From positions 1 to 49,230 of the forward strand of contig CANDYV010000002.1 in NCBI GenBank assembly GCA_947425085.1: a stretch of 49,230 nucleotides of DNA, written 5' to 3'. Below the pieces are notes generated by a model. It was not told the origin of the DNA. It did no database searches and saw only the letters and a program-made list of their open reading frames with translations. Below, in pieces: positions 11,971 to 16,433 of this stretch; within the stretch, counting starts at the first letter, position 1, and every line of letters begins with the position of its first letter. Both the position numbers and the translations under genes were made by a program. Source of the DNA: an uncultured Candidatus Saccharibacteria bacterium (GTDB lineage Bacteria > Patescibacteriota > Saccharimonadia > Saccharimonadales > Saccharimonadaceae).

Positions 11971-13062
11971 TTAGTGGATGTAGCTGAAGTTAGCGACGAC
12001 GTTAGCGGGGATAGTGGATTCGGTGATAACGTTGACGCGATAGCCGTAGTTCATTTCGCGAACGAGGATGGAACCGTCGTCATTCACGCGAAGGACGACG
12101 CCGACGTGACCATACCAACCTGAGGTAGTTTGGAAGACGGCACCGGCTTCTGGGGTATGATCGACGCGGAGGCCAAGGGCGCTAGCGTTTACGGCCCAAT
12201 ATTTAGCATCGCCAGTCAAGGATGCCGGGAGCGGGTTGCCATAAGCTTCGCGCCACCACCAAGCATAATAGGTACATTGACCCCAAACCATACGGTTCGT
12301 GGCGCTACGAGTGACGTTATCGTAGACAACACGCGGATTCTGGCGATCGGAAGTGCTACCCTGGAAAGTATAGGTGTAGACTGGGACATACTCAGGGCGC
12401 TCGGTGAGCGGCAAAGTACCGTTCGGGAGAACGATCTGAGAGCCAGCGACTAGACCCGTGCTTTCGAGGTCATTGTAAGCAATAATGCGCTCAGCGTCGG
12501 AGCCATAGCGAGAGGCAAGGCTGGCGGCAGTATCGCCAGCGCGAACTTCATAGACAATACCCGAGGTGCCAGGAATATTCAAAGAGGTGTTGACGGCGAC
12601 ATCAGTAGTCTTAAGACCGTTCGACCAGCGAATCTGGTCAGCAGACACGCCGTAGAGAGAGGCGATAGTGTTAACATTTTCGCCCTCTTTCACGATGTGC
12701 TTTTTCACACCGCGAGAGTCCTGAATCGTGACGTAGCCCGGCTTCTCAATGCGGTCAGTATTGGTCTGAGCGACTTCTTTCAAAACCGAGGCAGCGACGT
12801 AGTTACTAGCGACAGTATCAATGCTAGCGAGGTTAAACGAGTTGGAGAGGCTAGCTACGACATAGAGTTCCGAGAGCTGATCGGCGGAAATGCTGTTCGA
12901 AGCGGCAAGAGTGTTCATGTTGATACTGGCCGGGTCGGTCGAGTTTTTGTCGTCGGTGCCAATTTTTGCGAGCGCAAAAATCAAGCACGCCGTCAGCGCA
13001 TAGGGCAAAACCTTACGGATTGCCCGCAAAAACTTATGTTCTTTCTTCTGCTTAGTCTTCAT
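11971..13062 (-). CDS. LysM-LysM-CHAP peptidoglycan hydrolase
   Basis: A 363-aa secreted or membrane-tethered cell-wall enzyme. A basic N terminus and one hydrophobic segment (about 17-33) form a signal anchor. LysM domain 1 spans about 122-164 and LysM 2 about 169-213, both for binding glycan. The C-terminal CHAP domain (about 255-363) has the catalytic Cys263 in WGQCTYYAW, His319 in WYGHVGVV and a polar Glu336/Asn338 in REMNY. CHAP enzymes cut the stem peptide or bridge as amidases or endopeptidases. A role in cell separation or in remodelling at the host contact site is plausible but inferred. It has its own promoter and a 5'-terminal hairpin. Confidence 0.93.
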   Translation of the reverse strand: MKTKQKKEHKFLRAIRKVLPYALTACLIFALAKIGTDDKNSTDPASINMNTLAASNSISADQLSELYVVASLSNSFNLASIDTVASNYVAASVLKEVAQTNTDRIEKPGYVTIQDSRGVKKHIVKEGENVNTIASLYGVSADQIRWSNGLKTTDVAVNTSLNIPGTSGIVYEVRAGDTAASLASRYGSDAERIIAYNDLESTGLVAGSQIVLPNGTLPLTERPEYVPVYTYTFQGSTSDRQNPRVVYDNVTRSATNRMVWGQCTYYAWWWREAYGNPLPASLTGDAKYWAVNASALGLRVDHTPEAGAVFQTTSGWYGHVGVVLRVNDDGSILVREMNYGYRVNVITESTIPANVVANFSYIH

Positions 13063-13143: not shown

Positions 13144-14688
13144 CTACAGAGCAACATTACAGAGGCTTTGGCAGTATTCATGGATGTTCTGGTTATGCTC
13201 ATCCTCTGTACTACTATAATACATCGTACCGTCGTCGCCTGTCAAGAAGTAATACTTGTCGGCAACGCTTTCATCAGGGGTGGCGGTAGAGGTTAAGGCT
13301 TCGAGACCAGGATTGGAAATTGGGCCGTAAGGCAGGCCAGGATTTTTGCGGGTGTTATATGGCGAATCGATTTCGAGAGCGGCAGCATTGTCACCATAGA
13401 CTTCACGATTCGGGTCGACGAGATCGACGGCGTATTGAACGGTGACATCACTACCAAGCGTCCAGCCATCGGCAAGGCGATTGTAGAAGACTTTGGCGAC
13501 CTTGGCTTGGTCTTCGGCATTATTGGCTTCGCGCTGGACGACGGAGGCGAGGGTGATTCCTTGATAAAGATTGAGGCCTTGTGCTTCGAATTTAGCTTTC
13601 AGGTCGTTCTCCTCGAGGACGTCGGCCATTTCTTCAAGAAGACGACCGACAATGTTCTCAACTTTATCACCTTTGTAAAATTCGTAGGTATCACCAAAGA
13701 GATAGCCTTCGAGGCTAGTATTGTCCTCGGGGCGACCTTCAAAAATCCAAGCATAAGGCTTGCTGGAATAGTCAGCGGAAAGGCCAGCGGTAATTTCTTC
13801 ATCGGTATAACCATAGAGTAGGAGTTTTTTACGGAAATCGAAGATGTTTTCGCCTGGGAAGAAAGTAAAACTAAAAACGTTGTCGCGACTGCCAGTAAGG
13901 AGCAAATCGGTGATGTCGGCGACAGACATGGACTTATTGAGGTTATATTCACCGGCCTTGAGGCTGTCACCGCCCGAGGTGAGGCGGAAATGAATCTGAA
14001 AAACAAGGCTGTCACGGATGAGGCCAGCCTCTTTCAGCTCGTTTGCAACATCGCTAACGCTGGAGCCGGTCAGAACTGCGAAGACAGTGTCGTCGCATTC
14101 GTCGGCGTCAACTTCAGCGCAATTAATCTCAGAAACTGGGCGCGAGTTGTATTTATAGTATCCAAAAGCTGCACCGCCCAATAGGCCTAGTAAAACTAGA
14201 ATAGCAATAATTGCGGTCGCAAAACGGTGCGGCTTAGCTGCCTTGACGCTTTTGCGATGAGTCGAGGCGGCGCGAGTTGTGGACTTTCCGGTTTTCTCTT
14301 CGAGAAAGTCCTGAAGAATAATCGTGGCGGCCTCGGAGTCAATATCACCCTTTTTATAACCTTTTTTGCGATTTTTAAGGCGCTTTTCGGCTTCGACTGA
14401 GGTGAGAGATTCATCCTGAAAGCAGATTTTGGCGCTCGGAATAGACTTTTTGAGATCGCGCGCAAACTGTCGGACGTAGCGGCTTTGCTCGGTTTCTTGG
14501 CCCTGACTGTTGCGAGGGAGGCCGATCACGAAACTATCAATGTCCCAGGCGCGAGCCAGCGAGGCGATTTTTTGGAACTCGGTGCCGTCGACTTCTACGG
14601 CACTATAAGGGATGGCGATGCGGACTTTCGAATCAGCCTTAGCGACGCCAATGCGCTTCGTGCCGACATCAAGGGCGATTAGTTTCAT
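13144..14688 (-). CDS. RuvX/YqgF - MltG fusion protein
   Basis: A 514-aa two-domain protein in one uninterrupted frame. Residues 1-135 are a YqgF/RuvX RNase H-like domain (ALDVGTKRIGVA with Asp7, QDESLTSVEAE, and IDSEAATIILQDFL with Asp117), a family tied to 16S rRNA 3'-end maturation. A basic linker leads to one membrane helix (about 158-178). Residues 195-514 are an MltG/YceG endolytic transglycosylase with a LysM-like part and ASVVQREANN (Glu387 as the expected catalytic residue), which cuts nascent glycan strands outside the cell. The fused topology tethers an RNase H-like domain to the inner face of the membrane. The two families are neighbours in many genomes, so gene fusion is a natural origin. 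It overlaps the upstream gene by 4 bp. Confidence 0.93.
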   Translation of the reverse strand: MKLIALDVGTKRIGVAKADSKVRIAIPYSAVEVDGTEFQKIASLARAWDIDSFVIGLPRNSQGQETEQSRYVRQFARDLKKSIPSAKICFQDESLTSVEAEKRLKNRKKGYKKGDIDSEAATIILQDFLEEKTGKSTTRAASTHRKSVKAAKPHRFATAIIAILVLLGLLGGAAFGYYKYNSRPVSEINCAEVDADECDDTVFAVLTGSSVSDVANELKEAGLIRDSLVFQIHFRLTSGGDSLKAGEYNLNKSMSVADITDLLLTGSRDNVFSFTFFPGENIFDFRKKLLLYGYTDEEITAGLSADYSSKPYAWIFEGRPEDNTSLEGYLFGDTYEFYKGDKVENIVGRLLEEMADVLEENDLKAKFEAQGLNLYQGITLASVVQREANNAEDQAKVAKVFYNRLADGWTLGSDVTVQYAVDLVDPNREVYGDNAAALEIDSPYNTRKNPGLPYGPISNPGLEALTSTATPDESVADKYYFLTGDDGTMYYSSTEDEHNQNIHEYCQSLCNVAL

Positions 14689-16433
14689 GCTTTTTCGTCC
14701 TCTCCGGTCAGGATGATAGTGACTTTGCTACGGTCGTTCGGAACGGACCAGACCCAGAAATACGGGGTGCGAACTTCGACTGAGCTGACGCCGTTGATTG
14801 GGCGGAGGAGCGATTGAACTTCGCCAGTTTTATGGCCTTTGACTTTCTCGAAAATATCATCTTCGGTGACAGTCGGGCCGGCCGTAAGGGTGGTCTTTAG
14901 GCGAGCGTTTTCTTCGAGGCTAGTGAAGCGTTCGAAATATGGACTGCCGATCGAGTAAATCTTCTGCCCTTCCTCGAGATCAGCTTTCGATTTGATATAT
15001 TCTTCGATTTTGTCTCTAGATACAACATAGACAGAATATTTGACCGGAACGGTTACTTTCGGGGTGGTGCTACTACCAACTTCGTCGCCGACGGCTGGAG
15101 TCGAGTCGGCATCACCCGGCTCAGCTTTGAAACTGGAGTCAATCGCGACGACATCTTCGCCAAGATCCTCGAACAGATGCGAACGGCCTTCGCTTTCGTG
15201 CTCGGAAACTAGGGTTTCTTTGACTTTTTTAATATCGTCTTCGCTGACGACTTTGACCATGTGGGTCGTGCCGCCAGAGATAGTGCTGGAGTTGTTAACG
15301 GTCGCAGCGCCGTCATCATAGGCACTCCAACGCGCGCCGGCGGAGATGTTATATTTTTCGCCGCCTTCGACGGCTTCGACAGGAACTTCGAAGGTTTTCG
15401 TACAAAGCGCGCTAGGATTTCTAACTTGACTGTCGCAGAGGATAGGATAATCCCCGCCGTCCCAAGAGAATGTCGTACTGGCGGTGGTGGCGCGATATTT
15501 CAGACCATCAGAAGTCGTAAAAACTTCACCTTCGGGAATATGGTATGAAAAACCTTTGTCTTGGAAATCGCGGCCATAGAGTGAATAAACGACGCGAAGA
15601 GTGCCCTTTGCCTTGTCGCCTTTATCTTCTTCGCCGGTGGCGGTAAATTCGGTGTTGTATTTTTCTTCAAGGGTTATTTGCTCGGTATAGAAGACACCTT
15701 CAGAGAGGTTTTCCGCGGCTTGGTCGGTCGTAAAACGGACGGTTTCGTTGAAGTTACTAGAGGTGCTACTGATGGCGACGGTGATAGTCGCGGCGGGAGC
15801 GAAGACGAAGGCCCAAACTAGGGCGATAACCAGCACGATGGCGGCAGGCACGCCAATCATGATCCATTTGCGGTATTTCTCGAACGATGGCACTTTCGGG
15901 CCGTTTTTGGACTTTTGGCCCGGTTTTTTGCCGTTTTTAGGGTCTTTTCCGTCGTTTTCGAGGCTTTCTTCGGTCAAGTCGATAGTTTCGGCACCTTTTA
16001 TTTTGCGATCGTCAGAATCAACGTCAGAGGCCTTAGAAGCCATTTTAGCGCTATCTTTTTTGGATTTGGCGGATTTTTCGGGTTTTTCGTCGCTAAAATC
16101 GCCGGTTTCCTCGTCAATGACCTGTTCCTCGCGCTCAGAGGCCTTGAGGCTTTCTTCGGTCGGCACCATCGGGCGCGACTGAAGAGTCTTCGCGACGGGG
16201 ATTTTGGCGGCCATGGCCATTTTGATAATTGCCGGATCCGCAGTTACGATCACGGCGACCTTTTCGCACTCTTTAGCGACGCGGGCGACGAGCTTCATAT
16301 TCACAGCGCTACGAAGCATAGTAGCCTTTTTCGGCGGCACAAGGGCGACAAGTTTTTGTTCAGCCTGCTGGAGCTTAGTCAAGATATCGGTGATATCATC
16401 CTCCGGCTCCAAGTAAATAACTTCCTTGTTCAT
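14685..16433 (-). CDS. Large single-pass membrane protein of unknown function
   Basis: A 582-aa protein. Residues 1-90 form a small alpha/beta domain that starts YLEPEDDITDIL and continues LVALVPP. A charged, probably disordered Lys/Asp/Glu/Ser-rich linker (95-185) follows, then one membrane helix (about 190-212) and a large extracytoplasmic part of beta-rich character. I recall similar proteins in Patescibacteria being labelled baseplate-J-like, but I see no decisive motif. It is co-transcribed with the RuvX-MltG fusion (4-bp overlap), which suggests an envelope role. TATATT lies 6 bp before the ATG, so the mRNA is probably leaderless. Confidence 0.85.
   Translation of the reverse strand: MNKEVIYLEPEDDITDILTKLQQAEQKLVALVPPKKATMLRSAVNMKLVARVAKECEKVAVIVTADPAIIKMAMAAKIPVAKTLQSRPMVPTEESLKASEREEQVIDEETGDFSDEKPEKSAKSKKDSAKMASKASDVDSDDRKIKGAETIDLTEESLENDGKDPKNGKKPGQKSKNGPKVPSFEKYRKWIMIGVPAAIVLVIALVWAFVFAPAATITVAISSTSSNFNETVRFTTDQAAENLSEGVFYTEQITLEEKYNTEFTATGEEDKGDKAKGTLRVVYSLYGRDFQDKGFSYHIPEGEVFTTSDGLKYRATTASTTFSWDGGDYPILCDSQVRNPSALCTKTFEVPVEAVEGGEKYNISAGARWSAYDDGAATVNNSSTISGGTTHMVKVVSEDDIKKVKETLVSEHESEGRSHLFEDLGEDVVAIDSSFKAEPGDADSTPAVGDEVGSSTTPKVTVPVKYSVYVVSRDKIEEYIKSKADLEEGQKIYSIGSPYFERFTSLEENARLKTTLTAGPTVTEDDIFEKVKGHKTGEVQSLLRPINGVSSVEVRTPYFWVWSVPNDRSKVTIILTGEDEKA

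Follow-up and report, generated by a model that had tools for sequence, protein, structure and literature searches.

The genes yqgF (ruvX) and mltG lie side by side in many bacteria, and we know of no reason for this arrangement. The stretch of DNA analysed here (the window; 49,230 nucleotides, positions 1 to 49,230 of contig CANDYV010000002.1, assembly GCA_947425085.1, from an uncultured Candidatus Saccharibacteria bacterium) goes one step further, because a single reading frame in it appears to encode both proteins. Such a locus raises the question of whether the joint polypeptide is genuine and, if so, what may be gained by attaching a cytoplasmic nuclease domain to an enzyme that cuts glycan strands on the other side of the membrane.

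The fused gene and its surroundings

The gene, complement(13144..14688), occupies the minus strand and consists of one uninterrupted frame of 514 codons, with its ATG at 14688 and its stop codon at 13146-13144. Its limits had been correctly given in a first reading made from the letters alone (hereafter the sequence-only reading), to which the strand is added here. The features of the locus, in order of coordinates, are the following:

11971..13062, minus strand: downstream gene, cell-wall amidase-like, with two LysM domains and one CHAP domain (Pfam); synteny with mltG kept in relatives of both the fused and the split type
13147..13884, minus strand: catalytic domain of the MltG/YceG endolytic transglycosylase (about residues 269-514), catalytic glutamate E387
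13885..14142, minus strand: LysM-like membrane-proximal part of MltG (about residues 183-268), within the YceG match at 204-503
14143..14226, minus strand: single transmembrane helix (residues 155-182), N-terminus predicted to be cytoplasmic (positive-inside rule)
14227..14298, minus strand: predicted cytoplasmic linker (about residues 131-154), rich in lysine and arginine, predicted to be disordered at 136-153
14299..14688, minus strand: RuvX/YqgF RNase H-like domain (residues 1-130; Pfam PF03652, E = 7e-35)
14685..16433, minus strand: 582-aa gene preceding the fusion in its cluster, function unassigned

The stop codon of the upstream gene shares four nucleotides (ATGA, 14688-14685) with the ATG of the fusion, which hence belongs itself to a coupled cluster. 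The 582-aa upstream product has one apparent membrane helix, its gene is found directly 5' of ruvX across the class, and its match to Baseplate_J is only sub-threshold (E = 0.004). The assembly from which the window derives is 75% complete and comprises 45 contigs; it contains one RuvX and one MltG, both of them within the fusion gene.

Both domains appear to be intact

The sequence-only reading had regarded both domains as intact, and this view is borne out by near-full-length profile matches and by the presence of all the catalytic acids. The RuvX domain (residues 1-130 of 514) covers positions 1-133 of the 134 in PF03652, whereas residues 204-503 cover positions 2-274 of the 275 in PF02618 (YceG; E = 1e-70); both matches are far above the cut-off, and the corresponding NCBIfam models, TIGR00250 for RuvX and TIGR00247 for MltG, are also above theirs. 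Three metal-binding carboxylates have been described in the YqgF protein of D. radiodurans (D22, E106 and D122; PMC9601230), and we pair them, by motif position rather than by superposition, with D7, E93 and D117 of the fused protein, which are invariant in the 73 fused and 35 split homologues aligned. The motif LASVVQRE, which an alignment of the MltG region with Listeria Lmo1499 (4iiw) and E. coli MltG (2r1f) pairs with TMASIIEKE of the latter, contains E387, which is likewise invariant in all these fused and split sequences, the catalytic glutamate being E218 in E. coli and E242 in B. subtilis (PMC8135044). The best reading of this conservation is that both enzymes would remain active in the fusion, although RuvX may act on DNA branches instead of rRNA. 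Within the fused genus RuvX is the more conserved half, with a mean distance of 0.48 against 0.65 for MltG.

The AlphaFold model, computed with 70 family members, reaches a mean pLDDT of 89.6 and a pTM of only 0.59, and hence predicts two domains that are each well folded but have no set position relative to one another. Foldseek comparison of the model with solved structures retrieved 4iiw, 8yoa, 2r1f and 8yq7 for the MltG half, and 1nu0 (TMt 0.83), 7ess, 1vhx and 7w89 for the RuvX half, for which an RNase H-like fold is thus predicted. On the extracytoplasmic side, the fused proteins have four nearly invariant cysteines (C190, C198, C506 and C510), which possibly form two disulfides. A proposal for MltG is that it cleaves newly made strands close to the membrane and that its LysM part contributes to the choice of cut length (PMC8135044). 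The LysM-like part has been lost in a sub-clade of the window's genus (L031-L055 and L100-L110), in which the YceG match mostly begins at about profile position 50-68 and RuvX, the helix and the catalytic part are kept; this loss could alter glycan strand length.

A membrane helix at the joint and a linker held in frame

One strong hydrophobic helix lies at the joint, at about residues 157-175 by hydropathy (value 2.45) and at 155-182 in the AlphaFold model, and it is preceded by a disordered stretch (136-153) with pLDDT below 50. The net charge of the window's protein is +5 before the helix and 0 after it, and the same asymmetry is seen among homologues, whose 15-residue flanks have a mean net charge of +5.2 before and -0.3 after, the former exceeding the latter in 72 of 73 cases. 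By the positive-inside rule, these charges place RuvX in the cytoplasm and MltG outside, and the predicted sides match the places in which the two families usually work. The single helix and the tethering of a cytoplasmic RuvX to an extracytoplasmic MltG, both put forward in the sequence-only reading, are therefore upheld, the former by hydropathy and model alike and the latter as a prediction from the helix and its flanks.

The linker varies across the genus in both sequence and length (18-134 aa). Between the window and L111, a locus of another species whose fused protein is 90% identical, linker and helix are nevertheless the same over 51 residues despite 28 nucleotide differences. Comparison of species pairs gives 717, 596 and 1279 changes at the first, second and third codon positions of the linker, against 941, 462 and 3631 in RuvX; in most pairs the linker evolves fast, yet third positions still lead. 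Taken together, this codon-level constraint and fast change indicate that the joint is real coding sequence held in frame, the exact letters of which matter little. Fast evolution of the linker also makes a specific role for the joint as such less likely, and inspection of the linker alignments by eye revealed no conserved motif for cleavage or binding.

The gene in the window contains no in-frame ATG, GTG or TTG from codon 100 to codon 169, and the first one after this interval falls inside the membrane helix, which leaves no start for a separate full-length MltG in this species. Internal re-initiation as a source of separate MltG is thereby ruled out for the window's gene, and the internal starts seen in relatives are not conserved.

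The fusion across the genus

RuvX was found in 142 of the 147 genomes of the window's genus, fused to MltG in 140 and split from it in two sister species (G227 and G645). As far as their titles and records say, these genomes are metagenome assemblies, and each domain is single-copy in nearly all of them. One of the 140 fused loci (G263) is interrupted by contig ends; the other 139 present the fusion in one open frame of at least 439 aa that carries MltG too, as inferred from equal frame lengths and positions in two tables and, for 71 fused loci, directly verified in the DNA. All 80 contigs retrieved from a second collection, which has part of its genomes in common with the first, carry the fusion in one frame; nearly all of them bear the title Candidatus Saccharibacteria, and ruminant gut is the source of many. 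The fused proteins belong to some 140 species and span identities down to about 45%.

These results confirm, at the sequence level, the single RuvX-MltG frame noted in the sequence-only reading and refute the frameshift that it had envisaged near codons 135-155, the same frame being present in 139 of 142 RuvX-bearing genomes and in all 80 contigs. That a stop codon or frameshift at the joint was missed in assembly or sequencing, as the incomplete and fragmented assembly of the window might lead one to suspect, is a practically negligible prospect, refuted by the recurrence of the frame in about 140 genomes and 80 contigs and by the strong in-frame constraint across the joint. Judged by this evidence, the fusion is real, old and almost universal in the genus.

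Probable origin in place and later splits

Among the remaining genera of the family and order, ruvX and mltG form separate genes that share a strand and abut or overlap by a few bases, and split and fused lineages alike present the gene order upstream 582-aa gene, ruvX, mltG, LysM/CHAP amidase, obg; all four query genes lay within the fetched stretch in 134 of the 152 loci with any match. Because the neighbourhood is the same in split and fused lineages, the fusion appears to have arisen in place. Among the matches listed, and with positions compared by eye, the adjacency of yqgF and mltG is kept in many genomes of the phylum, so that the two are indeed frequent neighbours, as had been remarked from the sequence alone.

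In a maximum-likelihood tree of 57 rows the window's genus is recovered with support of 100/100, and it forms a clade with one sister genus (99/97) in which two of the 43 RuvX-bearing genomes are fused (G232 and G223). These two branch first in the sister genus with weak support (94/36 and 89/68). The fused or split state needs a minimum of three changes on this tree and, given a split outgroup, is most simply explained by one putative fusion on the common stem of the two genera followed by two splits, one inside the sister genus and one in the pair formed by G227 and G645, the sisterhood of which is supported at 100/93; separate fusions within the sister genus are also conceivable. In the two split species (L099 in G227 and L199 in G645), ruvX terminates immediately behind the sequence for its domain, and mltG is read in a different frame; both species have a candidate ATG within the end of ruvX.

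One of the fused members of the sister genus departs from the common architecture. The G223 gene (L070:4447-6222) encodes a fusion of RuvX, helix and LysM-like part that lacks the second half of the MltG catalytic domain and continues in frame into a glucosaminidase domain (PF01832, E = 2e-30). As far as domain content tells, it is a natural swap of strand-cutting activities behind the same RuvX anchor.

The search for the two-domain architecture across the phylum, which had been suggested along with the sequence-only reading, was positive for the window's genus and for the two members of the sister genus, and negative elsewhere: no further RuvX-MltG fusion was seen among the best matches (about 150 per family) in 380 genomes. 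In distant relatives, apparent readthrough of a stop codon was rejected, since the matches in question are neighbouring genes that lie in frame by chance and had been selected for crossing a stop. In another family of the phylum (G383, L191:3048-4568), RuvX follows, in one frame, a sequence that we take by eye to be methionine-aminopeptidase-like, in what is apparently an independent fusion.

What the fusion may provide

The explanation that we favour, with a probability of about 0.5, is an in-situ fusion of a translationally coupled ruvX-mltG pair, in which both enzymes are active and RuvX is tethered to the membrane in a 1:1 ratio with MltG. The stop codon of ruvX would have been lost and the frame bridged into the cytoplasmic N-terminal tail of MltG, with the protein then made and kept as one chain of about 56 kDa. 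RuvX would lie against the cytoplasmic side of the membrane and retain its nuclease function, on pre-16S rRNA or on structured nucleic acid, and MltG would cut nascent glycan strands outside, near the membrane, the disordered linker letting each domain work independently. The gain would then consist of a fixed 1:1 dosage and of the placement of RuvX at the membrane, rather than of an allosteric signal. Fixed stoichiometry had already been offered in the sequence-only reading, and the single frame carrying both domains lends it support. Since two lineages have apparently split the genes again, the covalent link seems dispensable over evolution and is probably a benefit more than a necessity. 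In this phylum YqgF counts as one of the less conserved ribosome biogenesis factors (PMC12641178), and that it has been kept here suggests that its function is needed.

Regulatory coupling, in which RuvX on the cytoplasmic tail would sense nucleic acid or ribosomes and thereby position or adjust MltG, or vice versa, with wall elongation keeping pace with ribosome production, seems to us unlikely. Long retention of the fusion in about 140 species with both active sites kept speaks in its favour, as does the G223 protein, where RuvX and the helix persist with a glucosaminidase domain in place of the second half of MltG, and a precedent exists in the interaction of the RNA-binding protein EloR with MltG reported in pneumococcus (Winther et al. 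2021, as cited in PMC8563077). On the other hand, the fusion has apparently been split twice, the linker is long, disordered and poorly conserved, and the low pTM comes with no predicted fixed arrangement of the domains. The sequence-only reading had envisaged a physical link between ribosome processing and wall elongation, and a direct control link from ribosome to wall is possible. In its fullest version, ribosome-linked RNA or another nucleic acid bound to RuvX inside would position or gate MltG outside, the fusion being a dedicated control point by which wall growth tracks ribosome production and the old yqgF-mltG neighbourhood the same link without the covalent bond; this version we hold to be quite unlikely.

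The loss of the stop codon might also have been fixed by drift with no benefit at all, the fusion persisting because re-splitting requires both a new start and a new stop. Coupled, overlapping ancestral genes would have eased such an accident, and two fissions on the simplest count agree with it, but maintenance across some 140 species whose proteins diverge to about 45% identity makes it unlikely. From sequence alone it is hard to tell this course of events from the explanation that we favour.

Finally, a protease could cut the precursor in the disordered linker, in which case the enzymes would act apart and the fusion would couple their synthesis only. This is compatible with a linker that is disordered and evolves fast, and with relatives in which separate genes suffice; we consider it very unlikely in view of the lack of a conserved cleavage motif discernible by eye in the linkers and of the identity of linker and helix between the window and L111.

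Within the favoured explanation, a single-copy fusion that is found nearly genus-wide shows that equal amounts of the two products can function at the same site, and hints that this may be a requirement. Provided that a single chain is made, membrane anchoring is also compatible with a nuclease whose presumed work on ribosomes takes place in the cytoplasm. The bearers are tiny host-dependent bacteria (Saccharibacteria), of one genus for the most part, and this clade constitutes a natural experiment on a link between ribosome maturation and wall growth, because fused, re-split and domain-swapped versions are all present in it.

Comparison with known systems

We found no published description of a RuvX-MltG fusion in the open-access literature, and it may well be recorded already in public domain-architecture databases; the domains and their neighbourhood are known, and it is the joined form that is apparently undescribed in the literature searched. 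With respect to the RuvX/YqgF family (PF03652; E. coli YqgF, M. tuberculosis RuvX, D. radiodurans YqgF), the fused protein presents the same full-length domain, fold and three carboxylates, but the members compared are stand-alone and soluble, whereas here the domain makes up the N-terminus of a larger protein and is tethered to the membrane. The MltG/YceG family (PF02618; E. coli MltG, B. subtilis YrrL, Listeria Lmo1499) shares with it the membrane helix, the LysM-like part, the catalytic domain and the glutamate, E387 occupying the place of E. coli E218 and B. subtilis E242; what sets the fusion apart is the whole nuclease domain on the cytoplasmic tail before the helix, and the sub-clade without the LysM-like part. 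Pneumococcal MltG/MpgA and EloR likewise link a strand-cutting enzyme of the MltG type to an intracellular nucleic-acid-binding protein, but EloR, which has KH and R3H domains, is a separate protein of another family, unrelated to RuvX, and no homology is claimed. Counterparts in separate form are the adjoining yqgF and mltG genes of other bacteria, such as yrrK (yqgF; BSU27390) and yrrL (yceG; BSU27370) of B. subtilis, which a co-evolution study links to each other and to translation genes (PMC3814617), and those of split Saccharibacteria, in which the order of ruvX and mltG and the neighbourhood are identical to those of the fusion: the same two genes are covalently joined here.
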